Of a stretch of 20,347 nucleotides of DNA, positions 1 to 20,347 are shown piece by piece. The position numbers and the translations under genes were made by a program. Source of the stretch: a virus; the IMG/VR virus record IMGVR_UViG_3300031730_000023, positions 1-20,347 of that record; one strand, 5' to 3'. The notes under the pieces were generated by a model that searched no databases, was not told the origin of the DNA, and worked only from the letters and a program-made list of their open reading frames with translations. Numbering within the stretch: the stretch's first letter is position 1; each line of letters begins with the position of its first letter.

Positions 1-866
1 TTCAAGAAGGATTCGTTGGACTGGAAAGAGCCCCCTCCATTTGTCGTCGAAAAGTCCGTGAAGGAGGACGGGGCGCTAAAGGTAATCCGATTTCCATTCC
101 CTACCCATACCCGAGAGGTAAAAGTTTCAATTGTCGTCCCAGAGATACCGAAAGGGAAGATAATACCCGTTGCGGTAGCGGTCACGCCTCCCCCACCGGG
201 AGCCGCTATGGTTACCGTGATGGTATCCCCCACCGCGTAGCCCGTCCCGGCATTTGTAACCGTTATAGCGGTCACAGATTGATTTGTTACCGTGGCGGTG
301 GCTGTAGCGTTAATACCTGCCCCAGAAGTGGTTATAGTGACCGCTGGAACGGAGAGATATTTTGTTCCGGCGTTTGTTATCGTGATTTGGGGGCCAATGG
401 TTCCAGAAGTGTATGCAATGGTTCCATCCCAGACGTAGTAGCCATTTGTCGCGGGAGTAATGATGAGAAGAAATTGGTTTCCCCATTGAGCGGTTTGAGG
501 GAGGGTTGAGCCGGTGTAAAAAGTTCCCGCAATAGTGGTATTGGCCATCGTGTTAAGGTTGACCTGCAAAGCAGATCCGTTATTACGGCACACAAACATA
601 TAGGGCACCCCGGCGAGGACGTAGAACGAGAAATAGACAATGCTGAGGCCTGTGCCGGTGGCATCGTAAACCTTTGTCCCTAGGCCATTGAGCGTCCTCA
701 AATTTCCCTTGCCGATGGGAAAATAGTTCTCCAGCCAGTTAAACTCATTGTCTTCAATAGATTGTCGTGGAGAGCGGGTATTAAGACCCCCAAAATCCTG
801 TAGATCAAAAAGTTGGGCCTCTTTGGGGAGGCCCTTTCTTTGCCCCCCTTGCGGGGATTTATCCAT
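1..866 (-). CDS. DNA-stabilisation / head-completion-like protein, C-terminus cut by window edge
   Basis: The frame is open from ATG at 866 to the left edge, giving 288 codons with no stop, so the gene continues outside the window. The N-terminal stretch around residues 22-55 (FDLQDFGGLNTRSPRQ, then EDNEF, NWLENYFPIGKGNLRTLNG) resembles the start of phage proteins that close the portal and stabilise packaged DNA (P22 gp10-type). I recognise this from memory and rate it moderate. Residues from about 160 on hold two or three beta-rich repeats (ITITNAGTKYLSVPAVTI, AITVTNAGTGYAVGDTI) like those in two other virion proteins here. The start is coupled to the upstream gene: its TAA and this ATG share one base (TAATG), and no Shine-Dalgarno is visible. 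A terminator-like hairpin lies inside codons 11-20. It could also be a tail-spike or tail-fibre anchor. Confidence 0.75.
   Translation of the reverse strand, partial: MDKSPQGGQRKGLPKEAQLFDLQDFGGLNTRSPRQSIEDNEFNWLENYFPIGKGNLRTLNGLGTKVYDATGTGLSIVYFSFYVLAGVPYMFVCRNNGSALQVNLNTMANTTIAGTFYTGSTLPQTAQWGNQFLLIITPATNGYYVWDGTIAYTSGTIGPQITITNAGTKYLSVPAVTITTSGAGINATATATVTNQSVTAITVTNAGTGYAVGDTITVTIAAPGGGGVTATATGIIFPFGISGTTIETFTSRVWVGNGNRITFSAPSSFTDFSTTNGGGSFQSNESFL
807..834 (-). terminator. Intrinsic terminator-like hairpin inside the start of the next gene
   Basis: GGGCCTC (815-821) and GAGGCCC (828-834) form a perfect 7-bp stem with a 6-base loop. On the minus strand the stem is followed by AAC and five T residues (811-807). 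A second small hairpin, CCCC-GCAA-GGGG on the minus strand, sits just upstream at 845-856. The plus-strand side is also followed by a T-rich stretch, so it could act both ways. It falls within the first 20 codons of the 866 gene, so it would be an attenuator rather than a simple end signal. It is read from sequence only. Confidence 0.5.
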
Positions 867-1339
867 TAGGGGGTTGCGCTATCAGCTTGAGCCACGGGAT
901 TCAGGGTGCGCTCTAAAACCCGGACATCAATCAGGGTCGAGGGGGAGGGGGCGGTAAGGGTTAAGCCATATTGGCCAAGCTGGTTATTCATAATAGTGGT
1001 AATTGAACCACCAAATTGACCGGTAGCCACGCCGTAAGTACCAACGACAGTGGCGGTAATCACGTTGCCCGAACCCAAACCAGTGCCGGGCTGTACGGTG
1101 CCAAAAATAGAGGAGGAAATATTGATCGTCCCCGAGGCACCGCGAACCAGGAAAGAGAGGGCTGCACCCGGAAGACCCGAGGGAGTGAACAGAGGAGTAG
1201 TTTGGGTGACGTTAATGGGAAGGGTATAAGAAATCCCCCAGGTCGTCTGAGTACCGTTTACAATAATCTTAGTCCACGAGCCATTTGCCGCAAAGGCGGG
1301 GGTTGCCAGTAGAGCTAGGGCAAATACGAGTTTCTTCAT
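866..1339 (-). CDS. Small secreted-type protein in the virion operon
   Basis: About 157 aa. It begins MKKLVFALALLATPAFA, a clear Sec signal peptide (two Lys, a hydrophobic core, AFA cleavage site), followed by AANGSWTKII. The mature part is rich in Thr, Gly, Val and Ile with no Cys, and looks beta-rich. AAGGA at 1351-1347 lies 7 bases before ATG 1339 and 4 before ATG 1342, so 1339 is chosen; 1342 and 1372 are in-frame alternatives. It overlaps the downstream start by one base. The mature N-terminus shares a GSW-x-KI pattern with the other signal-peptide protein at 2288-2587. The role is unknown; an envelope-directed or virion-associated protein is possible. A gene for an exported protein between the adaptor and the stabilisation gene is unusual. 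Confidence 0.75.
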   Translation of the reverse strand: MKKLVFALALLATPAFAANGSWTKIIVNGTQTTWGISYTLPINVTQTTPLFTPSGLPGAALSFLVRGASGTINISSSIFGTVQPGTGLGSGNVITATVVGTYGVATGQFGGSITTIMNNQLGQYGLTLTAPSPSTLIDVRVLERTLNPVAQADSATP

Positions 1340-1385
1340 CATCAATTCCTTTATGCGATAATTTTGCAACACTTATGGGTTTACG

Positions 1386-2288
1386 TCAATAGTACGAGGG
1401 AACGCCCCCGCCTTCACTTGAAGCTCTTGAGGTTTGGAGGCGCATCAGCCACTTGGCGTAGAAATCTTTGGCGTCCTCATCTCTCTGTGCGTATTCGTAA
1501 TAGAGATAAGTGGCGTAATAGGGCACTGCCTCGCTCCATGGATACGGAACGGCATCTTGGGCGGCAGTGGATGAGGACGTAATGTCCAAGGGAAGACAAA
1601 CACAGTCCCAATCCATCTCCCACGCCTGGGAGGGAATCGGATACAGGTAAATCGAGCCGTTATCTCCGAAGGAATATTGGGACCATATCGCAACATTACC
1701 ATATTGTTGAGGGTAAACATTGCACTGTGCCTGGTAATTCAACCAATCCAACTGATAGAGGGCTGGCTTTGTAGACCCATTAGAAACAGCCACTTGCAAG
1801 ACCTTGAGTATCCGGTCAACCCCTGTAGTAAGCTTTACTGTCGAGTTGACCAAAGTAAAGGGATATACTTGTTGATTAGTTACTGTATTCATTGAAGTGT
1901 TTATAGTAGCTGTTGCGGTTGCTCCGGAACCCGTTGAATCGGTAATCGTCATAGTTACCGTTCCGGTGAAATTAAACCCCCCATCAACCACGGTAATGGC
2001 AGTGACGGCCCCTGCAACAACAGTTGCTGTAAATATGGCAGACTGTCCTAGCCCTCCTGAGGCGGTAATTGTTGGGGAACTGGAATAAGCCGAGCCTCCT
2101 GCGGTTACGGTAACTGCCGAAATCGTCCCTCCCGAGGCTCTGACACGAATACATTCCCCCCTTTCAGCCGTTTTTACGCGCGCCTGGTTAATCATATTCG
2201 TAAGAATGGTCGCAGAGACAGCTTGAGAAGACGAATCCCGGATAAGAATCCGGGTGTTCGTTGTGTACTGAGCGAGGGTTTGACCCAT
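1386..2288 (-). CDS. Head-tail adaptor-like protein with inserted beta repeats
   Basis: 300 aa. Residues 4-50 (LAQYTTNTRILIRDSSSQAV, then a helix with INQARVKTAERGECIRV) match the usual start of phage head-tail adaptors that dock on the portal, where a short helical segment of the type 'LxxxR..LRD....SxxxLxxxINxAR' is typical. Residues 210-300 (YLYPIPSQAWEMDWDCVCLP, WSEAVPYYATYLYYEYAQR) fit the conserved C-terminal half of this group. Residues 52-131 are a Gly/Thr/Ala-rich insert with two repeats (AVTVTAGGSAYSSSPTI; AITVVDGGFNFTGTVTM) that ordinary adaptors lack. The start is coupled to the preceding gene by TAATG, with no good Shine-Dalgarno. Adaptor assignment is by family memory; the insert is seen directly. 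Confidence 0.72.
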   Translation of the reverse strand: MGQTLAQYTTNTRILIRDSSSQAVSATILTNMINQARVKTAERGECIRVRASGGTISAVTVTAGGSAYSSSPTITASGGLGQSAIFTATVVAGAVTAITVVDGGFNFTGTVTMTITDSTGSGATATATINTSMNTVTNQQVYPFTLVNSTVKLTTGVDRILKVLQVAVSNGSTKPALYQLDWLNYQAQCNVYPQQYGNVAIWSQYSFGDNGSIYLYPIPSQAWEMDWDCVCLPLDITSSSTAAQDAVPYPWSEAVPYYATYLYYEYAQRDEDAKDFYAKWLMRLQTSRASSEGGGVPSYY

Positions 2289-2587
2289 TACGGCGTGGTC
2301 GGGGTCGGGAAGTTACAAGCCGTAGCAGGAGCAACAATCTTCACCCATGAGCCAGTTGTGGTGTTACTTAAAATACACGCTGCTCCCAAGGTGGAGAGGG
2401 CAATTGTACCAGTCACTACTCCAGTGGGAGTGGTGGTGTTCGCTAGGCCTAAAGACATCGCGGTGGCACTGACAAAATAGGAGCCGCTAATCGCCGTGCC
2501 AGAAGGCCCGTTAAACAGGAAATCATAGGCGTAGGCCGGGCTTACCAGGGTGGCAATCACAGCAACAGTCGTTAAGAGTTTTTTCAT
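2288..2587 (-). CDS. Small signal-peptide protein
   Basis: 99 aa from ATG 2587, chosen because AGGA lies 6 bases upstream; the in-frame ATG at 2593 would abut the Shine-Dalgarno. It starts MKKLLTTVAVIATLVSPAYA, a classical Sec signal peptide with a YA-Y cleavage region. The mature 80 residues are Thr/Ala/Gly-rich with two Cys and end NFPTPTTP. TTGSWVKIV near the end recalls GSWTKII in the 866-1339 protein. It lies between the repeat protein and the adaptor and overlaps the adaptor start by TAATG. The function is not recognised; it may be a virion component processed in the periplasm, or a product acting on the host envelope. Confidence 0.7.
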   Translation of the reverse strand: MKKLLTTVAVIATLVSPAYAYDFLFNGPSGTAISGSYFVSATAMSLGLANTTTPTGVVTGTIALSTLGAACILSNTTTGSWVKIVAPATACNFPTPTTP

Positions 2588-2595
2588 GTCCATTC

Positions 2596-3705
2596 CTATG
2601 CTTGCGTTTGTACCAAAATCCAGTCTGACTGACCTCCAACGGTCGGCGTGGCTAGAGTAAGACCCGAGGCGCCCGAGGCGTTGGCGTTTGTAATCACACC
2701 AACGGGCACGGACTCAAAGAGTCCGTTGTCGTCAATGGCAATTGTAGTGATTGCACCAGCCACAACAGTGGCCACGCCATCCGCTGGGCGGTTATTCAGA
2801 CTCGGGTTGTTGGTAATCAGGTAGGCCGTAGTCGATTCAGACACAAAGCCCCCCGAAGTCGTATAACGTGTCCCAGCAACAAAACCAGTACCACCGGCAC
2901 TCACAGTCTGGCCCGTGACCACTAGGCACATAATCGCCGTGGCCGCCGCAGAAGCACCACCACCACCGCTAAAGGAAATGGTTGGTACAGAAGTAAGCGC
3001 TGTCCCTTGATAGGTGACAATCAGAGCATTAACCGTACCCGCACCCGTAAGGGCCAGAGTAGCCGTAGCAGGCGTAATCGGAGTCGTTGCCGAATTCAGA
3101 TTCGGGTCAGAAGGATCAGAGAAGAAGGTAATGGTCGGCTGGAAGCCGCCCGCGCCAGTAATCGAGCCGTAACCCGCACCTTGAGAGGTGATAGTCACCG
3201 AGGAAACTACACCATTTGTCAAGGTAGCGTAACCTTGCGCACCAATACCCGGAGTTGAAGTATTACCCTTGTTCGGGGCGTCAATGACCACGCGCGGCGG
3301 GACAGTGTAGTTAGACCCACCACTCACGATGGTTACCGTAGTCGAGACCACTTGACCCATCACTGCTACCGCAGTCGCACCACCAGAACTAAAGGCTACC
3401 GCTGGGGCAGAGGTATATCCCGTGCCTGCATTCGTCACCCAACCATCAATCACACAACCTGACAGGTTGGCCAGACGGTAGTTAGAGCCGTCCGAGTGAA
3501 AGGGGGTCGTATCGTTTACAGGTTGAAATCCCGTCCAGGCTTGTTTAACCGGGTCAAACCACTGTAGAAACGTGTAAGGGCCAGTTTGAATAATCAATTG
3601 ACCAGCCGGAAGGGTGCGGGTCGTCCCCGCATTCAGGGTCTCTACGTTAGTGCGGAGTTGACCGAGGTTGAACCCGTTACTGGTGCCATCGTTGTAATAA
3701 GCCAT
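2596..3705 (-). CDS. Repeat-rich virion protein (decoration, fibre or connector type)
   Basis: 369 aa, directly downstream of the major capsid gene; AGGAG overlaps the capsid stop and lies 6 bases before the ATG. Residues 1-80 form a separate N-terminal region (NLGQLRTNVETLNAGTTRTL, then an LQWFDP segment). From about residue 88 the protein is built of degenerate beta repeats of about 40 residues: GWVTNAGTGYTSAPAVAF, TIVSGGSNYTVPPRVVI, VTITSQGAGYGSI, LIVTYQGTALTSVPTISF, and weaker copies near 268 and 318. It has one Cys pair only and no signal peptide. Its position suggests an abundant virion protein, such as a capsid decoration or fibre-like protein. The exact role is not established by sequence. 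Confidence 0.7.
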   Translation of the reverse strand: MAYYNDGTSNGFNLGQLRTNVETLNAGTTRTLPAGQLIIQTGPYTFLQWFDPVKQAWTGFQPVNDTTPFHSDGSNYRLANLSGCVIDGWVTNAGTGYTSAPAVAFSSGGATAVAVMGQVVSTTVTIVSGGSNYTVPPRVVIDAPNKGNTSTPGIGAQGYATLTNGVVSSVTITSQGAGYGSITGAGGFQPTITFFSDPSDPNLNSATTPITPATATLALTGAGTVNALIVTYQGTALTSVPTISFSGGGGASAAATAIMCLVVTGQTVSAGGTGFVAGTRYTTSGGFVSESTTAYLITNNPSLNNRPADGVATVVAGAITTIAIDDNGLFESVPVGVITNANASGASGLTLATPTVGGQSDWILVQTQA

Positions 3706-3714
3706 TTGATTCTC

Positions 3715-4758
3715 CTAGGTTATCGCCGCCGCAGCAAAGGCCGGGCTCGTGATATTGGTTAGCTGCATGCCGGTCTTGGGTTTCGTACACACAATGTTGT
3801 AAGCCACAAGCATCGCGCCGATATAGGCAACCTGGTTGAGCGGAATGGTGTTTTGGAAGCCTGACCACACAAACGGCGCAGCTTCGCTCAGATAGAGAGC
3901 CAGATAGCGGGTGTTAATCAGGAATCCCGAACCAGCCGGACAGAATGGGTCGGAGAAAATCGGCACATTACCAATCATAATCCCCCGAAAACCCGAACGG
4001 GCCACATCATCCTTACCGAACTGAGAACTCGCAGTGGTTTGGATTTGTTCCAGCGTCATAACGTCCTGGCAGAGGTTTTCCCAGTCCGCGAGGTTCAAAA
4101 CACCAAAGTCGGGGGCCTCACCACCACTCACAGCGGTGCATTGAGAAATCAGACTGTGCATGTTCATGCGGTTGATCTTACCGCCCACGTTAGCGATTGT
4201 GCTTGCGAGAGAAGTATAGGTCACACGGGAGAGGCCACCGTAAGAACTATAGGTCGTACCATCATCGTAGGCTTGAAAGAAGTTAGCCGGGAGGGTCGGG
4301 TCGTTCGGGTTGTTATAAGGAGCAAGACCGTACATCGCCGAGGCCATACCCTTAAGGGTGACGTTCTTCATATCAGCCATACGGGCCTTCAAAATCGGAA
4401 CGATAGACTCGGTGCTTTGCACTACGGCTTCCATCCCAAACATCCCAACGGGTGTAATACCCAGACTCAGGTTGAATTGAAGTTGGCCCGGCACACCAGC
4501 GGTATCCTGGGGTTGTTGGAAGGTTCCCGCATAACCGCTAAAGGCAAACTGCACAAAACTTGCGGTTTGCACGGGAATGGAGATTTGAGAGAGGCCGCCA
4601 CCAGCTTTTTGAGCATTGCGGAGCAGCATCGCCATGGTCGGCAATGCTTGATAAATCTGAATAACAACGGAAGGAATGACCGCGCGGCGGGTCAGAGCTT
4701 GGAGTTGATTCTGGGTTGCGGTTGAAGTACCCGCAAGCATCCCGCCAAATACAGGCAT
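3715..4758 (-). CDS. Major capsid protein
   Basis: 347 aa, right size for an HK97-fold capsid subunit that uses a separate scaffold. It has the expected layout: a short N-terminal arm, a mixed alpha/beta core, DFGVLNLADWENLCQDVMTL and GFRGIMIGNVPIFSDPFCPA in the second half, and a hydrophobic C-terminal strand set (VAYIGAMLVAYNIVCTKP). The gene lies between scaffold and a repeat-rich virion protein, as in many podoviruses. GGGGAG is 8 bases upstream of the ATG, the strongest Shine-Dalgarno in this block, as expected for the most abundant product. The stop of the scaffold gene and this ATG overlap as TAATG. I infer the function from position, size and general resemblance, with good confidence. 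Confidence 0.88.
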   Translation of the reverse strand: MPVFGGMLAGTSTATQNQLQALTRRAVIPSVVIQIYQALPTMAMLLRNAQKAGGGLSQISIPVQTASFVQFAFSGYAGTFQQPQDTAGVPGQLQFNLSLGITPVGMFGMEAVVQSTESIVPILKARMADMKNVTLKGMASAMYGLAPYNNPNDPTLPANFFQAYDDGTTYSSYGGLSRVTYTSLASTIANVGGKINRMNMHSLISQCTAVSGGEAPDFGVLNLADWENLCQDVMTLEQIQTTASSQFGKDDVARSGFRGIMIGNVPIFSDPFCPAGSGFLINTRYLALYLSEAAPFVWSGFQNTIPLNQVAYIGAMLVAYNIVCTKPKTGMQLTNITSPAFAAAAIT

Positions 4759-8691: not shown

Positions 8692-10877
8692 CGCCACATC
8701 CTTGAGAGCTCGGCCATTTTCTTTTCCTCATCGTTCGCGTTTAAGGTTGTCGTCACTAGTCTCGTCCACATTTGATTCCTCGCATCCCGTTTAATCGGGT
8801 CGTTTAAATCTGCCTCTAATTGTAAAACCCGCTCATAGGTCTCCCCTCTTTGTAACATCCCAGGTCGAATCGAATCCACCCAGGCTTGAACAGCGAAACC
8901 CCCCGCGAAGACGCGGTCGTCTTTATGTCGGCCCTCGGCCCCAATCGAACTGCCGTTCTGGATAATCTTATGCATTTCTTCCAGCATGGGAACTGAGTTG
9001 ACCATTAACTCACCAGTATAAAACTTATCCCGCATATGCCCCATCATCGTAAGAATGGTCTGGTCGGTACTCTGGGTATGATAAAACCCCCCCGCCCCGT
9101 AAACCCCATCCGGTCTCCTCCAAATAAAGGAGCGGAGTCCTGAGAGGAAGTTGCCAGTAAACAATTCGGGGTTTCTTAAATCTCCCGTCGTATCCCCGGT
9201 TTCCGCAGCGGTAGGAGTAAGAACACCAAGATTACTCAATTGTTTCAAATGTTTAAGTTCCTGAATCACCTGCCAGCCCACCCCGTTCACTTCAAGGTTT
9301 ACCAGTGAGTCTTTATAGAGCCCTCCTAGGAAGGCTAAGACCCAGGCACATTGAGAGGCGGAACTATCAGGACTAGCATACTCCGCCACCTGAACTAACT
9401 TATCGGCATAACAGCGCCAGACAGAGACCACGTTCCTGTCCTTGTGCTCGTTATTCCCATAAGCACTGTCACAGCCGATAACGTACTTGCCTTGAGGGCT
9501 AGGCCGTTGCCAGATTCTAAGCTCAACCTCCGATTTAACATAAGCCTTCTCCAGGGACACTCCCAGTACGTCTTGACCGAGAAAGAACTTGTAGGCTTCA
9601 AATTTAGAGCCGGAATCCGCAATCACCTTGATTCTGTCAGAGACCTTGGTTGAACTAAAGAAGTGGGAACCTGTTAAGACAAAGGCTTCATATTCATGCC
9701 AGGGGTAATTCTGCTCAATCGTCCCCTCCTCAACAGTCCCGGTACTCTGTTTATGTCTGTACCAGGCTAATTGTCCTCTTGTGACCTCATACCCATAAAG
9801 CTCCTTAACAATTTTAATCTTCCCAGCCTCTTCCTCGTTAGGTTCATCCGCCCCGTACTTCTCCATTAAACGAGGCTCGTTATCCAGCGTATAATCCCTC
9901 TTCGCCCACCAGCCGATAAAGATACATCTCTGGGCATGAGGATCATCCCGAGCCTGCTGCCAGCCGTCATAGAACATATTAAAGCCCTCAGCAGTGCTCT
10001 CCCATATCCGTATCCGCCAAGGGTGTTTTTCCGCAAGTGTAGCCCTCAGAGAATCAAACCCCCGCCCATCCCCCCAGGCAGAGACCTCCGTCCCATGACA
10101 CCCCGCAAAGGCACGAGACTTCCCAAGACCCTTACCACCCCTCTTAGTCCCGGCCACAAGGTAATCAAGAACTGACCCATTCGCCAGTTGTAAGTTTGTT
10201 CGGTTATGTAAAGTCTGCTCCGGTCTATAACTCTTAGGCAGACTTTCCAAATACCTCTTTAAAATAATAATCGCCTTCTGCTTGTTATCGTCCGTATCAG
10301 TGACCAACCCATACTGCATCCCCGGATGAACAATTAACCAGAACAAATCAAGAGCCAAACTGATTGTCGTTATCCCCAACTGCCTAGCTTTAAGTATCCA
10401 GAACTCATGGATACCCTCATCAAGACCTTTGCAGACCTCCTTCAAAAATATAAGCTGGGATTCAAATAAGGAGTCCCTTAAAGAGATCCTACCGTAGTCC
10501 TTAGTGTCCACCTGTAATGCTGTAATAAACTCCATAAATAGGTCTAACCACTTGGAACTATTACCATTTGTAGTTACAAGAATATTTTCCTGCGGGGGGG
10601 AGAGAGTTGGGGGGCTCCATCTCTCCTCAGTCAAAGACCCATCAACCTCTTTTAAACTGTTTTGGGTCTGGTCTATACCAATACCCTCTAATACAGGTAA
10701 ACCTGCTGTACGGGCTTCCTGGTCAGCCTGGTATAGCTTAGCCTTATGTTCTTTTTCCTCAGCTAACCTCTTTAATCTCCACCGCCTCTTCTGATTACAT
10801 GAGCGTGAGCATAGGAATTGCTTGGCTTGAGCAGCCTCAAAGTGGCACCCGCATTCCTGGCAGACCTTTAGCTGCAT
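8688..10877 (-). CDS. terL: Terminase large subunit with N-terminal zinc finger
   Basis: 729 aa, the motor that pumps DNA into the capsid and cuts it. Residues 163-171 (KARQLGITT) are the Walker A-like motif; RAFAGCHGTEVSAWGD (255-270, Glu264) fits Walker B; ESTAEG (293-298) fits the coupling motif. The nuclease half has VIGCDSAYG (Asp470), an acidic NLEVNG (Glu529) and HKDDRVFAGG (Asp653/654). The N-terminal 30 residues carry Cys6, Cys9, Cys23 and Cys27 followed by a basic run (QKRRWRLKR), a separate zinc-finger-like module that most TerL proteins lack, and residues 40-105 look like a flexible linker. The length is well above the usual 450-600 aa. No Shine-Dalgarno precedes ATG 10877, and no later start keeps the Walker A with a reasonable N-terminus. 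Confidence 0.92.
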   Translation of the reverse strand: MQLKVCQECGCHFEAAQAKQFLCSRSCNQKRRWRLKRLAEEKEHKAKLYQADQEARTAGLPVLEGIGIDQTQNSLKEVDGSLTEERWSPPTLSPPQENILVTTNGNSSKWLDLFMEFITALQVDTKDYGRISLRDSLFESQLIFLKEVCKGLDEGIHEFWILKARQLGITTISLALDLFWLIVHPGMQYGLVTDTDDNKQKAIIILKRYLESLPKSYRPEQTLHNRTNLQLANGSVLDYLVAGTKRGGKGLGKSRAFAGCHGTEVSAWGDGRGFDSLRATLAEKHPWRIRIWESTAEGFNMFYDGWQQARDDPHAQRCIFIGWWAKRDYTLDNEPRLMEKYGADEPNEEEAGKIKIVKELYGYEVTRGQLAWYRHKQSTGTVEEGTIEQNYPWHEYEAFVLTGSHFFSSTKVSDRIKVIADSGSKFEAYKFFLGQDVLGVSLEKAYVKSEVELRIWQRPSPQGKYVIGCDSAYGNNEHKDRNVVSVWRCYADKLVQVAEYASPDSSASQCAWVLAFLGGLYKDSLVNLEVNGVGWQVIQELKHLKQLSNLGVLTPTAAETGDTTGDLRNPELFTGNFLSGLRSFIWRRPDGVYGAGGFYHTQSTDQTILTMMGHMRDKFYTGELMVNSVPMLEEMHKIIQNGSSIGAEGRHKDDRVFAGGFAVQAWVDSIRPGMLQRGETYERVLQLEADLNDPIKRDARNQMWTRLVTTTLNANDEEKKMAELSRMWR

Positions 10878-11003
10878 GTCGGTAAATGTTTACTGTGATT
10901 TAACATAAGATACATTCTGCGAAGCTCTTCCGGGTGGTTATTAATGTACATGAGGAGATTTATATCAAAGCACCTTGTGTTGCGCAATCACAACATCTAA
11001 ATT
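10878..11003. promoter_or_regulatory. Divergent control region between structural and early blocks
   Basis: This 126-base gap separates the minus-strand packaging/structural genes from the plus-strand genes. GTAAA-TG-TTTAC (10882-10893) lies just before TerL. The palindrome TTGCGCAA (10980-10987) is flanked by TTGTG (10975-10979) and CACAA (10989-10993). A weak plus-strand promoter candidate is TTGTGT with 17-base spacing to TAAATT (10998-11003). No strong minus-strand promoter could be found for TerL. This is the expected place for switch control; all sites are inferred. Confidence 0.4.
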
Positions 11004-11231
11004 ATGGGCATGGGAAATCTAAGTAAATCTAAAGCGGGTGTCAAGGCTTCTTATGAGGGTGTGAGGATGAAAGCTATTTGGCTACCTGAATGCTTGGAGA
11101 GGGAGCTAAAGCTATATGCAGGGCAGAGACTAATGAGGTTAAGGGGGGAATGGGCTAATGAATTACGAGAGCTTGAAGAGTCAGACAGTGGAGAACAACG
11201 GGTGTTGGGATTGGTTGGGGACAGCCACTAA
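11004..11231 (+). CDS. Small ORF before the HNH gene
   Basis: 75 aa, basic, with a helix-rich middle (WLPECLERELKLYAGQRLMR, then GEWANELRELEE). Its last 25 codons overlap the HNH gene in another frame. ATG 11067 (after GAGGGTGTGAGG) is an alternative start, giving 54 aa, and is preferable if the weak promoter ending at 11003 is real. No motif recognised. The helical composition and operon position support it only moderately. Confidence 0.45.
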   Translation: MGMGNLSKSKAGVKASYEGVRMKAIWLPECLERELKLYAGQRLMRLRGEWANELRELEESDSGEQRVLGLVGDSH

Positions 11232-11595
11232 AGAGGGTTATGGAGTAATCTATTTCAACCGCAAAACCCACTTGGTAACCCGTACAATGTGGCTATTGGT
11301 TAATGGCCCTATCCCTGCCGGGTTATTCTGTTGCCATAAATGCGATAGGCCTATTTGTTGTAACCCTGCTCATTTGTTTTTGGGTACGGCTAAAGATAAC
11401 ACTCAAGACTGTATTGCTAAGGGGCGATACAAATCCAATCAATCCCCTATCCGGGTGCGCAAGCTAACTGCTGAACAGGTTAACTCTATCCGCGCGGCTG
11501 TGGGGTTGCAGCGGGATATCGCCTTGGCACATGGGGTTTCAGTTGCCTGCGTGTGCCTCATCCGGGCTGGGAAGCGGAAGCAGCTCACGCGATGA
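11158..11595 (+). CDS. HNH endonuclease with C-terminal HTH
   Basis: 145 aa. Residues 16-82 hold the HNH_3-type layout: CWDW, GYGVIYFN, TMWLLVNGPIPAGLF, then CCHKCDRPICCNPAHLF with His60, Cys62, Cys67/68 and His72, and GTAKDN (DN at 80-81). In relatives a His often precedes the 'xxW' strand; here the segment reads LVTRTMW, so the first His may be replaced. Residues 103-141 (LTAEQVNSIRAAVGLQRDIA, then HGVSVACVCLIRAGKR) are a helix-turn-helix DNA-binding tail common in these nucleases. Such genes are free-standing homing-type nucleases, or assist packaging when next to terminase. It faces away from TerL. A G-rich stretch precedes the ATG. Confidence 0.85.
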   Translation: MNYESLKSQTVENNGCWDWLGTATKEGYGVIYFNRKTHLVTRTMWLLVNGPIPAGLFCCHKCDRPICCNPAHLFLGTAKDNTQDCIAKGRYKSNQSPIRVRKLTAEQVNSIRAAVGLQRDIALAHGVSVACVCLIRAGKRKQLTR

Positions 11596-11628
11596 TTTCC
11601 TTGTGGGCCGCATTCTATAATAAGGCCG

Positions 11629-11648
11629 GTCAGTAGTCAATCACTGAC
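11629..11648. terminator. Inverted repeat between convergent genes
   Basis: GTCAGT (11629-11634) and ACTGAC (11643-11648) form a 6-bp stem with an 8-base loop in the gap between the HNH gene and the convergent 83-aa gene. TTTT at 11655-11658 is 7 bases away, so it would be a weak terminator for the plus strand. No T-run follows on the other strand. An operator role is possible. Confidence 0.3.
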
Positions 11649-11651
11649 GTG

Positions 11652-11668
11652 ACATTTTAATCACAATT
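11652..11668. promoter_or_regulatory. Copy 3 of the TGTGRTTAAAAT motif
   Basis: The reverse complement reads TGTGATTAAAATGTC, matching copies 1 and 2. It lies in the convergent gap between 11595 and 11674. On the plus strand TTTAAT (11656-11661) could be a -10 box, with a poor -35 (TAGTCA) upstream; a promoter here would oppose the 83-aa gene. Confidence 0.3.
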
Positions 11669-11673
11669 CTAAA

Positions 11674-11925
11674 CTATTTGAGGTTGAGTCTGTTCGTCCT
11701 GCGCCTGCGCGGGTGGCCATCTCCATCAAAAATACTCTGCGTCTTAGGGCGTTTGGACGGTTCTTTCCAGCCTGCCTTCTGGTCTTTTATGGAGTTAACA
11801 CCTGCCTGAATATCCCAGAGGGTCTTAATAAGTTCCTCTACCTCGTTATGTGTGGCACGTTCCTTATAATAGGTTTTTGCTTCCCAATCACGGTAAATAT
11901 TAACCGCATATAATATGTGTGCCAT
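11674..11925 (-). CDS. 83-aa protein, possibly leaderless; unknown
   Basis: Hydrophilic, MAHILYAVNIYRDWEAKTYY, with a helix (ATHNEVEELIKTLWDIQAGV) and a basic tail (PRRRRTNRLNLK). It is the only minus-strand gene between 10878 and 20002. The overlapping plus-strand frame is judged a shadow because it is hydrophobic and lacks any initiation signal, whereas this gene has a strong promoter. The ATG lies 6 bases after the -10 box, so the mRNA would have no leader, and no Shine-Dalgarno is present. The position opposite the early genes, with an operator-like repeat over the promoter, suggests a regulator, but no HTH is visible. Function unknown. Confidence 0.6.
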   Translation of the reverse strand: MAHILYAVNIYRDWEAKTYYKERATHNEVEELIKTLWDIQAGVNSIKDQKAGWKEPSKRPKTQSIFDGDGHPRRRRTNRLNLK

Positions 11926-11931
11926 TTGTAT

Positions 11932-11960
11932 ATTCTAAACTTTCATGTTGATTATGTCCA
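11932..11960 (-). promoter_or_regulatory. Sigma70-like promoter of the 83-aa gene
   Basis: TGGACA (11960-11955), 17 bases, TAGAAT (11937-11932): each box matches the consensus at 5 of 6. The expected start coincides with the A of ATG 11925. Confidence 0.6.
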
Positions 11961-11966
11961 CATAAT
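11951..11966. promoter_or_regulatory. Operator-like inverted repeat over the -35 box
   Basis: ATTATGT-CC-ACATAAT: two perfect 7-bp arms with a 2-base centre, covering the -35 box of the 83-aa gene promoter. Its size and symmetry suit a dimeric repressor site. The AT-rich sequence to its right leads to the 12001 gene, so it could control both directions. Confidence 0.5.
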
Positions 11967-12000
11967 ATATTATTGAATCCGTGTACAGAAAGATAACAAC

Positions 12001-12126
12001 ATGGTGACCTATGATGTGGTTGATGAAAACGGGCATATTAGGCTAACCGACCTGACCTCTGCTGAGGCTTATGCCCTGGCTGGGGACTATGAAAAGGTTG
12101 TAGGGAGGTTGAATCTAGGGCTATGA
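12001..12126 (+). CDS. 41-aa protein, unknown
   Basis: MVTYDVVDENGHIRLTDLTS followed by AEAYALAGDYEKVVGRLNLGL. The stop overlaps the next start as ATGA. The composition is that of a small folded domain. There is no clear Shine-Dalgarno and no good promoter, although the AT-rich region with the inverted repeat is just upstream. Function unknown. Confidence 0.55.
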   Translation: MVTYDVVDENGHIRLTDLTSAEAYALAGDYEKVVGRLNLGL

Positions 12127-12389
12127 AAATGGAACGAGCTTTAAAGGCTCTAGTCGAAGAGCAAAATTATACCGTAGTATCTAAAACTGATTTCGTATTG
12201 GCGGCACAGATACTTAAGAACGGTTGGGCAGATTACTCATTTAATGAGGATGAAATCTGGCTTACTCCCACTCCTAAAGGTATAAGATACGCCCTTACCC
12301 TGGGTATTAAATACGATCCTGACTATCAGTCCAAGCAAATGGACAGGTGGCTTAAACTACATGACGAACTCTATTCTAAAAATGAGTAA
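12123..12389 (+). CDS. 88-aa protein, unknown
   Basis: MKMERALKALVEEQNYTVVS, with helical and beta parts and a central IWLTPTPKGIRYALTLGIK. It is coupled to its predecessor by ATGA. ATG 12129 is an alternative start. It overlaps the next gene by 8 bases. No family recognised. Confidence 0.6.
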   Translation: MKMERALKALVEEQNYTVVSKTDFVLAAQILKNGWADYSFNEDEIWLTPTPKGIRYALTLGIKYDPDYQSKQMDRWLKLHDELYSKNE

Positions 12390-14701: not shown

Positions 14702-15400
14702 ATGCCAAAACCGACGCGGACACTGGAACGGATTAGCTTGCCGGGAGGGTGGTATTTTGAAGCTGTGGGCAATAAATACCACCTGCAACACGACAGATGG
14801 GGCAGCACTACTGTGCGAAGTGGCTTGTGGTGTGACGGTGATGCCGAGAGTTTTGCATCAGCGATGAATGGCCAACACTACGGCACGTCACGAATTACTG
14901 ACCCGGTATTTCAGACTGCACAGAAGGAATTAAACCGAATTCATGCCACTCAAGTTGCCGCCCTGCAAAGCCCTGCGTCAAAAATCCCAGTGGTTACAAT
15001 AAACGGCATTTCAAGCTCGATGCCAGACACAGAATACAGCCGGTATAGTTTTCCTGATGGTGTAAGCCATGAGGCAGGCGCGGATTATTTTACCTTACCT
15101 AGATTTGTTATGGCCGAAATCTTAGAACTGCGTGAACTTAAACGTAAACTGCAAAGCCCTGCGGGGGAGTGGCGGCCAATAGCAACGGCTCCGAAGGATG
15201 GGCGAAAGCTTTTGCTATGGCCTACGGATGGTTCTCACCACCGGAATTGTGAGCCGCAATCTACCATTGGTTATTGGACTGAACACGCGCCGGGTACGAA
15301 GTATGCCGGTAAGGGTTTTTGGATGGGTTGGAACAAATGCAAAAATCCCACCCACTGGCTCCCTTTGCCCCCGGCCCCAACCCAAAAGAAAGATAAGTAA
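14702..15400 (+). CDS. DUF551-like protein with repeat linkers
   Basis: 232 aa. The C-terminal third (EWRPIATAPKDGRKLLLWP, GYW, GFWMGWNKCKNPTHWLPLPP) matches the DUF551 pattern of proteobacterial phages (WxPIxxAPxDGxxxLLW ... PTHWxPLPPxP). The middle (residues 97-150) is a separate region, and the two are joined by LQSPA. The 15-nt sequence for that linker occurs twice, at 14963-14977 and 15149-15163. The N-terminal part (residues 1-80) holds WYFEAVGNKYHL and is unlike DUF551. DUF551 function is not established. The gene begins one base after the preceding stop. Confidence 0.72.
   Translation: MPKPTRTLERISLPGGWYFEAVGNKYHLQHDRWGSTTVRSGLWCDGDAESFASAMNGQHYGTSRITDPVFQTAQKELNRIHATQVAALQSPASKIPVVTINGISSSMPDTEYSRYSFPDGVSHEAGADYFTLPRFVMAEILELRELKRKLQSPAGEWRPIATAPKDGRKLLLWPTDGSHHRNCEPQSTIGYWTEHAPGTKYAGKGFWMGWNKCKNPTHWLPLPPAPTQKKDK
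14963..15163 (+). repeat. Exact 15-nt linker repeat (two copies)
   Basis: CTGCAAAGCCCTGCG at 14963-14977 and again at 15149-15163. Both copies are in frame and code for LQSPA, on the two sides of the middle region of the DUF551-like protein. They may be remnants of module joining. Confidence 0.7.
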
Positions 15401-15401
15401 A

Positions 15402-16397
15402 ATGCTCGCCTATCACAGTGACCCGAAAGTAAAAGCCAAGTACGTCAACCGTATTAAGGCCCACATCAAAGCCGATGATATCCAGCATGGCTTTTACTGG
15501 AGAAACGGAAAAGGTTGTGCAGTTGGTTGCACCATCGAAGGCTCCGACCACTCGGCTTATGAGCGTGAGATCGGCATTCCTGAATGGCTTGCGCGGGTAG
15601 AAGATACTCTATTTGAGGGCATGAATAACAAAAAGGCGCGCACTTGGCCAAAAGTGTTTCTAGAAGCCATCAAGCCTGGGATGGATTTGGAATCTTTGAA
15701 AGCGCCATTTATGTTGTTGGTTTTGCGTAATTCCTTGGCCATCCAGGAGGATAACACAAAATTTGATGCCGCCAAAAACCCCGAAGTAGTGAAAGTAATT
15801 GAAGAAGCCAAAAAGGTTCTCAAGGTGTGCATTGATCTGTGGAAAAAAGGCGAACCCGCCTGGAGCGCCGCCTGGAGCGCCGCCGAGAGCGCCGCCTGGA
15901 GCGCCTGGAGCGCCGCCGAGAGCGCCGCCTGGAGCGCCGCCGAGAGCGCCGCCTGGAGCGCCGCCGAGAGCGCCGCCAGGAGCGCCGCCGAGAGCGCCGC
16001 CTGGAGCGCCGAGAGCGCCGCCTGGAGCGCCGCCGAGAGCGCCGCCTGGAGCGCCGAGAGCGCCGCCTGGATCGCCGAGAGCGCCGCCAGGAGCGCCGCC
16101 TGGAGCGCCGAGAGCGCCGCCTGGAGCGCCAGGAGCGCCGCCTGGAGCGCCGAGAGCGCCGCCTGGAGCGCCGCCTGGAGCGCCGAGAGCGCCGCCTGGA
16201 GCGCCGAGAGCGCCGCCAGGAGCGCCGCCTGGAGCGCCGAGAGCGCCGCCTGGAGCGCCGCCTGGAGCGCCGAGAGCGCCGCCGAGAGCGCCGCCTGGAG
16301 CGCCGCCTGGAGCGCCGAGAGCGCCGCCTTCGACTATTACGCCGACGAACTGCTCAAGCTTATAAAGGCTTGCCCGGCCCCAACTGGGGAGGGGTGA
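15402..16397 (+). CDS. Phage protein with C-terminal Ala/Ser/Trp repeat tail
   Basis: 331 aa from ATG 15402; the frame is open further upstream over another gene, which is a shadow. Residues 1-145 are a globular domain: MLAYHSDPKVKAKYVNRIKA, GFYWRNGKGCAVGCTIEGSD, HSAYEREIGIPEWLARVEDT. I recognise this as a phage/prophage family of unknown function. Residues about 152-308 are tetrapeptide repeats (SAAW, SAAE, SAAR, SAE) that should be helical and alternate large, charged and small residues. The end is FDYYADELLKLIKACPAPTG. Shine-Dalgarno-like AAAGATAAG precedes the ATG. The repeat region is far more GC-rich than the neighbouring genes. Confidence 0.8.
   Translation: MLAYHSDPKVKAKYVNRIKAHIKADDIQHGFYWRNGKGCAVGCTIEGSDHSAYEREIGIPEWLARVEDTLFEGMNNKKARTWPKVFLEAIKPGMDLESLKAPFMLLVLRNSLAIQEDNTKFDAAKNPEVVKVIEEAKKVLKVCIDLWKKGEPAWSAAWSAAESAAWSAWSAAESAAWSAAESAAWSAAESAARSAAESAAWSAESAAWSAAESAAWSAESAAWIAESAARSAAWSAESAAWSARSAAWSAESAAWSAAWSAESAAWSAESAARSAAWSAESAAWSAAWSAESAAESAAWSAAWSAESAAFDYYADELLKLIKACPAPTGEG
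15859..16329 (+). repeat. GC-rich 12/9-nt tandem repeat array
   Basis: About 470 bases of GAGCGCCGCCTG and GAGCGCCGCCGA (12 nt) mixed with 9-nt units (GAGCGCCGA). All units are multiples of 3, so gain or loss keeps the reading frame. Occasional base changes (ATC for AGC near 16071, CAG for CTG) show some divergence. It codes for the SAAW/SAAE/SAAR tail of the 15402 gene. Confidence 0.9.
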
Positions 16398-16398
16398 G

Positions 16399-16704
16399 AT
16401 GAAAATAACCCACATTAGCTTCGGCGGCCCGGAACGAATAATTGAGATTGGCGGGAAGGATTATCACTTTGAGATGCATCCACACTTAGGCCCGATGCCA
16501 ATTCACGAGAAGTCCAAGAACGAGAGGAAGCTTTCGCACAATCACTTCTTTTGGCATGCCGTGAGTATTTGGGCGCAACAGGGCGAAAAGCTACTACCTG
16601 ACGGAAAGTGCGATTGGCATTGTGATGTGTCCGAGTACAAGGCCGAACAACGCCTCATCAAAAAACTAACAAAGCCCAACCAATGGAAGCCCGCAATGAA
16701 ATGA
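16399..16704 (+). CDS. 101-aa His/Trp-rich protein, unknown
   Basis: MKITHISFGGPERIIEIGGK, then YHFEMHPHLGPMPIHEKSKN and LSHNHFFWHAVSIWAQQGEK. Many His and one Cys pair (CDWHCD) could bind metal, but no standard site is seen. GAGGGG precedes the ATG, which lies one base past the previous stop. The stop overlaps the next start. No family recognised with certainty. Confidence 0.7.
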   Translation: MKITHISFGGPERIIEIGGKDYHFEMHPHLGPMPIHEKSKNERKLSHNHFFWHAVSIWAQQGEKLLPDGKCDWHCDVSEYKAEQRLIKKLTKPNQWKPAMK

Positions 16705-17423
16705 GCTTGGATAAACAAACGCTGCTGCCGTGCCCGTTCTGCGGCGATATAGAAAGCCTTGATGCTGCCGAGGCGCTTGGCCAACATATCGATGGATGCC
16801 CAACGATTGCTGCGGGATGTGAAAACTGCGGCGCTGTCGGCCCTAGCGTGTCTTACACAGGCGGCAAACAAATACCCATCCCCACACCTGACGAGCTTCT
16901 AGAGCGGAGCGCCCAAAGATGGAACGCCCGCCCCGCCAGCCCGGTAACGCGCAGCGCGGAAGCCTTGCGGTACGCAGAAAAGGCATTCGTATTAATCAAA
17001 AACCTTGCCAATGACGAGCATATGTCAAAGGCCCGTAACCTGGCACTCGTATGGCTATCATTATACGAAGATATTGAACAGCTCGAAGCCAGCCAGCCTA
17101 TCGAGGCCGACGATAAAGTGCGGGCGCTGGCCTCTAAAATGCTTTGCATGGCCAAGAAGGCTATTGATGATGCTAACGGCGAAGATTTGGTTGTTATCAC
17201 AAGCAGGCAATTTCAGGCATTCTCAAGCCAGCCTCAGCCGCAGAGTGATGAGGGGCTGCGGTATCAGTTTGAATGTTTGCGGCGGGTACTCGACCCTGAG
17301 ACTCTTACTGCTTTGCAGCGCTATCCCATGGATGTGTCTGTTGCCCATGCTGTTGAGGCTATCATTTCTCAGGCCCTATCCCGCCAAGCCCCTGTACCGA
17401 CAACCAATGGAGGGAAAGGGTGA
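16701..17423 (+). CDS. Lar-like zinc-ribbon protein, large
   Basis: 240 aa from ATG 16701, chosen for the ATGA overlap; ATG 16683 lies within the previous gene. The start, LLPCPFCG, then CENCGAVGP and QRWNARP, fits the Lar restriction-alleviation family (CPFCG ... CxxC ... WNxR). Lar proteins modulate host restriction; whether this one does is inferred. After residue 80 there is a long helical extension (AEALRYAEKAFVLIKNLAND; GLRYQFECLRRVLDPETLTA) that is not part of the usual 60-90-aa Lar. Internal Ser/Gln/Pro linkers (SQPQPQSD) separate parts. It ends with GGKG, which overlaps the next ribosome site. Confidence 0.7.
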   Translation: MSLDKQTLLPCPFCGDIESLDAAEALGQHIDGCPTIAAGCENCGAVGPSVSYTGGKQIPIPTPDELLERSAQRWNARPASPVTRSAEALRYAEKAFVLIKNLANDEHMSKARNLALVWLSLYEDIEQLEASQPIEADDKVRALASKMLCMAKKAIDDANGEDLVVITSRQFQAFSSQPQPQSDEGLRYQFECLRRVLDPETLTALQRYPMDVSVAHAVEAIISQALSRQAPVPTTNGGKG

Positions 17424-19930: not shown

Positions 19931-20078
19931 GGGTGGCCTTAACCGTGCTTTGATATTATCTCCCGAGAGACGGAAAGAAATAGCCAAGTTAGGGGCTGCG
20001 GCTAGAGTTCGTAGCCTAACCTCCCCAAAACCCGCCTTAACCTCAACTGCTCCTTTATGCTCAACCCCTCAAGCATAA
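19911..20078 (+). CDS. Small protein with SPERRKEIAKLGA motif
   Basis: 55 aa from ATG 19911. SKGGLNRALILSPERRKEIA followed by KLGAAARVRS is a pattern frequent in short phage proteins and prophage regulators (SPERRxEIAxxxAAAR). It probably binds DNA or a protein partner; unproven. The last 20 residues are low-complexity and lie over the end of the convergent minus-strand gene, so the true end may be shared or the tail may be a read-through of an altered end. Confidence 0.6.
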   Translation: MMKRTSKGGLNRALILSPERRKEIAKLGAAARVRSLTSPKPALTSTAPLCSTPQA

Positions 20079-20347
20079 ATAAACCTGGCTCAAAGTCTAT
20101 CTGTCGCCAAAATCTCAAAAGCATCTCTTTCTGGGTCGAATATTTCTTCTCAAAACTCCTCTGTCCTCTATGAAATTCCAGGTGTCTCCTCCGGCTCAAA
20201 GGTATCACAAACCAGTCGAAGGTCTTTAACCCCTTCCCGCTCTCAAAGAAATTTCCAAGACAATGGTGGGGGTCAACTGCCATCCCATCCCCCGTCATAT
20301 CGCGCAGGCCGGTTTTGAGTTCACTTTTGAACCACTCATAGTACACT
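20002..20347 (-). CDS. DUF968/Ref-like HNH nuclease, start outside window
   Basis: At least 114 aa, reading in from the right edge; the GTG at 20346 is probably not the true start. Residues 25-60 hold DPHHCLG, a Gly/Lys stretch, then DWFVIPLSRRRHLEFHR with His27/His28, His55 and His59. This is the His-rich metal site of DUF968 and Ref-type nucleases, which help recombination or cut single-strand DNA regions in related phages. The Cys positions often seen before the DPHH site would lie outside the window. The end, RLRRVLGRLGYEL, is intact. It overlaps the plus-strand gene by 77 bases tail to tail. Confidence 0.7.
   Translation of the reverse strand, partial: VYYEWFKSELKTGLRDMTGDGMAVDPHHCLGNFFESGKGLKTFDWFVIPLSRRRHLEFHRGQRSFEKKYSTQKEMLLRFWRQIDFEPGLFMLEGLSIKEQLRLRRVLGRLGYEL

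Follow-up and report, generated by a model that had tools for sequence, protein, structure and literature searches.

Why would a tailed phage, whose particles are thought to be assembled in the cytoplasm, carry genes with export signals among those for its head and neck? The question is raised by the IMG/VR virus record IMGVR_UViG_3300031730_000023, of which we analyzed positions 1-20,347 (20,347 bases, hereafter the window). An operon on its minus strand comprises, in this order, terminase, portal, a scaffold-like gene, capsid, P369, SP1, ADP, SP2 and STOP. The labels SP1, SP2, ADP, STOP, P369, A, B and C were coined here from homology and gene order, and the scaffold-like label reflects position only. 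SP1 and SP2 are the two genes that begin with predicted Sec signal peptides. At a probability that we put a little under one half, we favor the reading that both are moron-like accessory genes whose products leave the cytoplasm by Sec and act in the envelope. This reading draws on the signals themselves, the position of the genes in the operon, the absence of such genes from the same slots in readable related phages, and the cargo that some of those slots hold instead. A lineage with Sec-signal genes inside its head-neck operon, and with further signals on fiber- or spike-like proteins of its kin, offers a direct test of the view that assembly is cytoplasmic: either such phages secrete decoys or exclusion factors, or some virion parts cross the envelope.

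Predicted export signals of SP1 and SP2

SP1 (2288..2593, minus strand) encodes a 101-aa protein with the N-terminus MDMKKLLTTVAVIATLVSPAYA/YDF, a predicted Sec signal peptide of 22 aa (2528..2593, minus strand) and two cysteines in the mature part. SP2 (866..1342, minus strand) encodes a 158-aa protein with the N-terminus MMKKLVFALALLATPAFA/ANG, a predicted Sec signal peptide of 18 aa (1289..1342, minus strand) and no cysteine. Both are orphans. The signals were evaluated with a home-made score that has no lipoprotein or Tat model. SP1 scored 3.67 and SP2 4.17, values reached in 1 and 2, respectively, of 2000 sequences in which residues 2-30 had been shuffled, and in line with E. coli signal-peptide controls, nine of ten of which scored 2.8-4.1 while one was missed. 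The score also misses the spike of locus L259 (see below); because it misses known cases and lacks lipoprotein and Tat models, all signal counts given here are rough. An AxA cleavage site and a short hydrophobic core, features typical of cleavable signals, are present in both; neither mature start carries a cysteine, and no further hydrophobic segment was seen in either protein by reading. The Sec signals that an earlier note on this DNA had placed at the start of both proteins are thus borne out, far above shuffled sequence and within the control range.

Such scores were rare in the surrounding sequence. Among 1927 open reading frames (ORFs) of the window and the earlier-collected part of the related loci described below, tiled longest first and with L001 (the window itself) and L004-L006 (distant capsid hits) left out, only SP1 and SP2 scored above 2.6. 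Without tiling, further scores exceeded this line, either where a longer ORF covers the frame concerned or within the capsid gene, and these are not part of the count (L032, L040, L042, L094, L119, L123, L044, L062, L073, L074 and L183).

SP1 may start at ATG 2593 or 2587, and SP2 at ATG 1342 or 1339 (the mechanically derived ORF begins at GTG 1372). Each fills its junction, has a ribosome-binding site and overlaps the next start with its stop, through a TAATG shared by the SP1 stop and ADP start and another shared by the SP2 stop and STOP start. On these features, and with a base composition like that of the rest of the operon, both look like real genes. The alternation of signal genes with head-tail genes reported in the earlier note also holds, as P369 (3705-2596), SP1, ADP, SP2 and STOP follow one another on the minus strand.

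The two proteins had further been proposed to share a GSW-x-KI motif after their signals and to be, perhaps, recent duplicates. The motif is found at residue 21 in SP2 and at residue 81 in SP1, where it does not follow the signal, and an equally good shared six-residue word (5 of 6) was found in 91 of 400 shuffles, a chance level. Pairwise profile comparison with hhalign gave 2.2-10.7% probability. By this comparison, the mature parts are unrelated, and recent duplication is not supported. The DNA around the two starts, in contrast to the mature parts, is alike over about 30 nt that include the ribosome-binding site and first codons (2573..2601 for SP1 and 1325..1356 for SP2, both on the minus strand). 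The local score of 33 was the highest of 66 pairs from 12 operon gene starts (the next was 26) and was reached in 0 of 1000 shuffles. In a control of 52 exported-gene starts hand-picked from the annotation of six E. coli K-12 stretches, 2 of 1326 pairs reached 33, as did 0 of 66 pairs (best 30) of proteins with KK-, KR- or NK-type residues after the Met. A shared or copied 5' leader is therefore possible by this test, which was chosen post hoc, after the match had been noticed.

The two junctions in related phages

Two circular Manatee Spring phage records, MW202753 and MW202825, have homologs of the capsid (39% identity), portal (30.6-31.7%), ADP (28%) and STOP (36-39% over the aligned part) proteins in the same order. 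In these phages and their IMG/VR kin, A, B and C lie between capsid and adaptor, and nothing lies between adaptor and STOP; unlike the window, they have no signal-peptide gene in the stretch from capsid to STOP. We assembled further loci with a capsid alignment, which led to the best 80 of 579 IMG/VR loci plus five loci from bacterial genome bins, and with P369 alignments, the first of which gave 57 loci; the wider second alignment gave 68, of which 26 were counted as new.

We refer to the interval from P369 to ADP as slot 1 and that from ADP to STOP as slot 2. Slots were counted only where both landmarks were found and with near-identical contigs included: slot 1 in 46 and slot 2 in 39 of 59 loci in a first reading, and 20 and 18, respectively, of the 26 in the wider set, for which ORFs of 60 aa or more were considered. 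A signal-peptide gene was present in slot 1 of none of these 46 + 20 readable P369-lineage loci, and in slot 2 of none of the 39 + 18. ADP and STOP are generally contiguous: of the 66 loci having both among the best 80 of 579 plus five, 65 show a gap of -4 to +2 bp (the other, L089, has 73 bp). SP2 is therefore an insertion between two genes that are adjacent in relatives, as would be expected of a moron.

Both junctions take extra genes in some kin, which favors an accessory reading. Slot 1 holds Tad2-like genes (PF11195) in L130 (8077-8373, plus strand, E 4e-22) and L132 (8076-8342, plus strand, E 3.8e-23), members of a family named for blocking Thoeris defense, and an MptE-like gene in L118. 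Slot 2 holds a DUF6321 gene in L093, with a near-twin in L095; a small gene in L094 with a match to phrog_462 'lipoprotein' (E 1.7e-13) and weak ones to Rz-like spanin families (E 0.016 and 0.064); 4.3 kb with other ORFs in L139; and a piece of STOP in L135. L089 and L123 have short slot-2 gaps with no ORF of 48 aa or more. None of the genes inserted into slot 2 in the 39 P369-lineage loci carries a signal.

The usual occupant of slot 1 is the conserved small gene C, found in 37 of 46 and 16 of 20 P369-lineage loci with a profile built from loci of the same set. No C gene was recognizable in any frame of the window (best E 0.038, for a 17-residue scrap). Nine of the 46 slot-1 loci are without C, and six of them carry a second adaptor copy instead. 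These tandem adaptor-like copies with C absent are found in L097, L098-L100, L102 and L135.

ADP (1386..2288, minus strand) is an adaptor-like head-tail protein with an inserted beta-repeat, homologous to MW202753 and MW202825 genes by both position and sequence; its PHROG structural matches fall mostly within the beta-repeat. STOP (3..866, minus strand) is a large tail or neck protein of which the N-terminal 288 aa precede the window edge; its Manatee Spring counterparts are both 662 aa long. P369 (2596..3705, minus strand), a repeat-rich protein encoded directly after the capsid gene, serves as the marker of the phage lineage, and the major capsid protein (3715..4758, minus strand) matches phrog_9953 (E 3.2e-15). 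ADP, P369 and STOP have a common type of beta-repeat inside otherwise different proteins; by eye it approximates G-x-Y-x-x-x-P-x-I/V, and a STOP profile also matches ADP and P369.

Elsewhere in the window, a 399-aa ORF (15198-16397, plus strand) contains a long central run of AAWSAAESAA-type repeats, with other frames also open there, and has no match in Pfam. An HNH endonuclease gene (11158-11595, plus strand; PF13392, E 2e-9) lies near the terminase gene where the strands diverge. A Lar-like N-terminal region (16683-17423, plus strand; PF14354, E 1e-4) falls short of the cut-off. At the window edge lies a DUF968 match (20002-20346, minus strand; PF06147, E 8.7e-12).

Signal peptides downstream of STOP and rival readings

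Two genes after STOP, L199 and L208 encode signal-peptide proteins whose bodies, by eye, are beta-helix spike-like (L199) and repeat-rich and fiber-like (L208). Neither had a match by tblastn in phages, in Pfam or in PHROGs. Because of this find, kin records were read more widely: 41 P369-lineage records and 10 of 12 Manatee-like records were read piecewise, most nearly whole and several only to base 20000 or 40000. In the P369 lineage, the region up to 22 kb downstream of STOP, on the same strand and in records with a landmark, has 366 ORFs, of which 23 scored as signal peptides compared to 14 of 1286 elsewhere (Fisher p 1.3e-7); the 23 came from 10 of 35 non-redundant records. The ten Manatee-like records showed no such enrichment (3 of 118 downstream versus 8 of 394 elsewhere, p 0.72). 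Where a capsid landmark was present, 40 of 1528 ORFs in the P369 lineage and 11 of 453 in the Manatee-like records scored; shuffling the N-termini reduced these counts to 3 and 1. This last comparison excludes ten records for lack of a capsid landmark, and the downstream count excludes G010 and G045, which have no landmark at all; the near-duplicates G020, G028, G030 and G031 were dropped, while G036, G038 and G042, with capsids 95-96% alike, were kept. The counted ORFs include some doubtful N-termini, such as a 401-aa ORF of G023 and the Manatee-like G050 and G054.

A family scan used an alignment (A7) of 33 author-chosen members, namely SP1, SP2 and 31 of 43 signal ORFs; a capsid false positive, short or membrane-like ORFs and L245 16576-19722 stayed outside it, the last being scanned alone with no family match. 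One kin protein (L268:17720-19186, plus strand) aligned with Peptidase_S74, a tail-spike chaperone domain, at E 3.5e-4 and 21.2 bits against a cut-off of 22. Another (L262:15986-17917, minus strand), outside the downstream count, matched the pectate-lyase-like family PF12708 (E 5.6e-12); its start, SRRKALLL, resembles a Tat signal motif. One further A7 member, not named in the output, matched an arabinofuranosidase domain (E 2.5e-7). A7 matched six PHROGs in all, four of which are tail fiber or tail spike families; each of these was matched by a single member, which may be the same one throughout. Most of the 31 scanned kin signal proteins match nothing.

A comparison of spike genes bears on whether such signals are used. 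The L199 spike (10810-12237, plus strand) has a counterpart, 88% identical from residue 21 on, in the record of L180 (L259, which is G034, minus strand). The G034 gene starts MKRFLLASTALAFFGFTDHAFA/QGCWPSNPNCIVPT...RAASTAFVQ (mature start QGC), which differs from L199 but again reads, by eye, as a Sec signal that the home-made score misses. L280 has its own signal followed by a module like that of G034, on a different body. The export-type N-terminus of the kin spikes thus seems to be retained despite its exchanged sequence, and that it is kept while its letters change supports the notion that the signals are being used.

Further signal genes in kin include L208:5315-6127 (plus strand) and L254:8643-10909 (minus strand), and L254 has four in a row. 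A conserved signal-bearing protein of about 245 aa (TRVWLMYG...) is encoded in three kin phages (L224:13821-14567, L256:1156-1890 and L257:13968-14711); the L256 copy had no Pfam match.

Export signals on fiber-like tail proteins would be unusual if used, and no report of signal-peptide tail fibers was found in the sections available to us of the literature on phage export and signals. The earlier note had regarded exported products as unexpected beside virion genes; the signal genes downstream of STOP in kin, some of them fiber- or spike-like, take away part of that surprise. They also raise a rival reading, in which the lineage sends fiber-, spike- or decoration-like beta proteins through Sec, with SP1 and SP2 as small members. 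Exported proteins of this kind would join the particle only at lysis or stay behind as surface decoys. For the kin, virion-type export is supported by the position of the signal ORFs, by the fiber and spike family matches and by the exchanged signals on the L199 and G034 spikes and the like module in L280. The support does not extend to SP1 and SP2 themselves, which match none of the kin fiber or spike proteins and precede STOP, outside the fiber region. In addition, most kin signal proteins match nothing, a possible link between SP2 and the B family on the capsid side, through L104, was not significant (40 of 1000 shuffles were as good), and the window ends inside STOP, so that this phage's own fiber genes lie unseen beyond its edge. 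We consider this reading doubtful for SP1 and SP2, although it is the strongest of the rivals. Its broadest form, in which a whole environmental lineage of tailed phages would export spikes, fibers, SP1 and SP2 by Sec, and possibly Tat, into a pre-lysis periplasmic or surface pool that completes particles or acts as receptor-coating decoys, strikes us as rather unlikely.

A second alternative keeps the products at the inner membrane or in the particle. The hydrophobic N-termini would then be uncleaved and belong to inner-membrane, neck or ejection parts, with SP1 replacing the C protein. SP1 does occupy the slot of the missing C, and the TAATG overlaps tie both genes into the head-neck operon. 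The AxA sites and short hydrophobic cores, however, are those of cleavable signals, and C is also absent from L097-L100, L102 and L135, which have a second adaptor copy; the loss of C therefore needs no exported substitute. We judge this reading improbable. Least likely are helpers of lysis or envelope weakening, whether spanin-like or wall-acting enzymes; the phrog_462 'lipoprotein' and weak Rz-like matches of the slot-2 gene in L094 are set against the lack, in SP1 and SP2, of a mature-start cysteine, of a further hydrophobic segment seen by reading and of any enzyme family match.

Proposed envelope role and known systems compared

Under the favored reading of SP1 and SP2 as exported accessory proteins, the two genes would have settled at two gene boundaries within the head-neck operon and be translated, presumably late, alongside the virion genes. 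Their products would be exported by Sec and then cleaved, and the mature proteins would be small, beta-rich and located in the periplasm or on the outer surface of the infected cell. There they might block further phage entry or mask a receptor while particles are assembled inside. A role of this kind, exclusion or receptor masking, is a guess by analogy, prompted by the precedents of T4 Spackle and T5 Llp.

Searches for relatives bear on this reading. SP1 and SP2 had no acceptable family match in Pfam, PHROGs, NCBIfam or PADLOC (the best PHROG row for SP2 was at E 0.1), a result that includes no direct comparison with Llp, Cor or Spackle; no virion-family, enzyme-family, fiber or spike domain match was found for either. 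Single-sequence searches of viral contigs with SP1, SP2, capsid and portal confirmed no close relative, tblastn in phages found no relative of SP1 or SP2, and SP2 had no match in the four bacterial genomes behind L087-L090.

Several candidates were set aside. One plasmid row for SP2 (E 0.4) is at chance level, and the best PDB sequences, LecA for SP2 (E 0.038) and one at E 0.25 for SP1, were also taken as chance. The best kin ORF for SP1, L201 783-1064 (E 0.015, with 0 of 1000 shuffles as high), was counted as chance because it overlaps a zinc-ribbon-like gene (659-1144) in another frame and is the best of a large set. As a B-family relative of SP2, L104 gave an alignment that looked collinear, but it came from looking through 4998 ORF entries, and the B profile gave 530 of 1000 shuffles; a scan with the SP2-L104 alignment confirmed no relative. 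Profile alignments and shuffles found nothing to relate SP1 or SP2 to A, C or P369.

A number of observations weigh against the accessory, envelope-acting interpretation. The base composition of SP1 and SP2 (GC 0.526 and 0.530) does not deviate from that of the operon genes (0.476-0.558), as that of a moron would. A weak promoter-like match just upstream of SP2 (9/12; 1361..1389, minus strand) and a weak terminator-like hairpin just after it, inside the start of STOP (815..834, minus strand), are of kinds that occur near chance (3 found versus 4.3 expected in 6 kb, and 11 found versus 6.5 expected, sd 2.9, respectively). SP1 sits in the slot of the conserved C and could therefore be a structural substitute. 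An exclusion protein would hardly be expected to be expressed together with virion genes, given that T4 Spackle is early, and neither sequence nor fold links SP1 or SP2 to exclusion proteins. Single-sequence AlphaFold models of the mature parts had mean pLDDT values of 40.5 and 46.8, too low to be usable, and no fold search was therefore made. With no accepted relative of either protein, no conservation backs any function. The suggestion in the earlier note that the products might act on the envelope fits the predicted signals, the lack of virion-family matches and the cargo-accepting slots.

Among known systems, morons of the lambda lom and bor type are extra genes between conserved genes that are absent in relatives. 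SP1 and SP2 differ from these in lacking a foreign base composition, and the promoter- and terminator-like sites around SP2 are near chance. The gene for T4 Spackle is not known to lie between virion genes. Spackle (gp61.3) has a mature periplasmic form of 75 aa that inhibits gp5 lysozyme; like SP1 and SP2 it is a small phage protein with a periplasmic signal, cleaved in its case, and its site of action is the host envelope during infection, while in contrast to what is proposed for them it is alpha-helical and early (PMC7677548). T5 Llp and phi80 Cor are likewise exported phage proteins; Llp blocks the receptor, and its gene neighbors a virion gene, the receptor-binding pb5 (PMC9586334). Both are superinfection-exclusion lipoproteins, whereas SP1 and SP2 have no cysteine at the mature start. 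Finally, Xanthomonas phage PBR31 encodes a signal-peptide protein, gp40, that resembles tail-associated hydrolases (PMC10975493); it is an esterase of the lysis block, whereas SP1 and SP2 belong to a head-neck operon.

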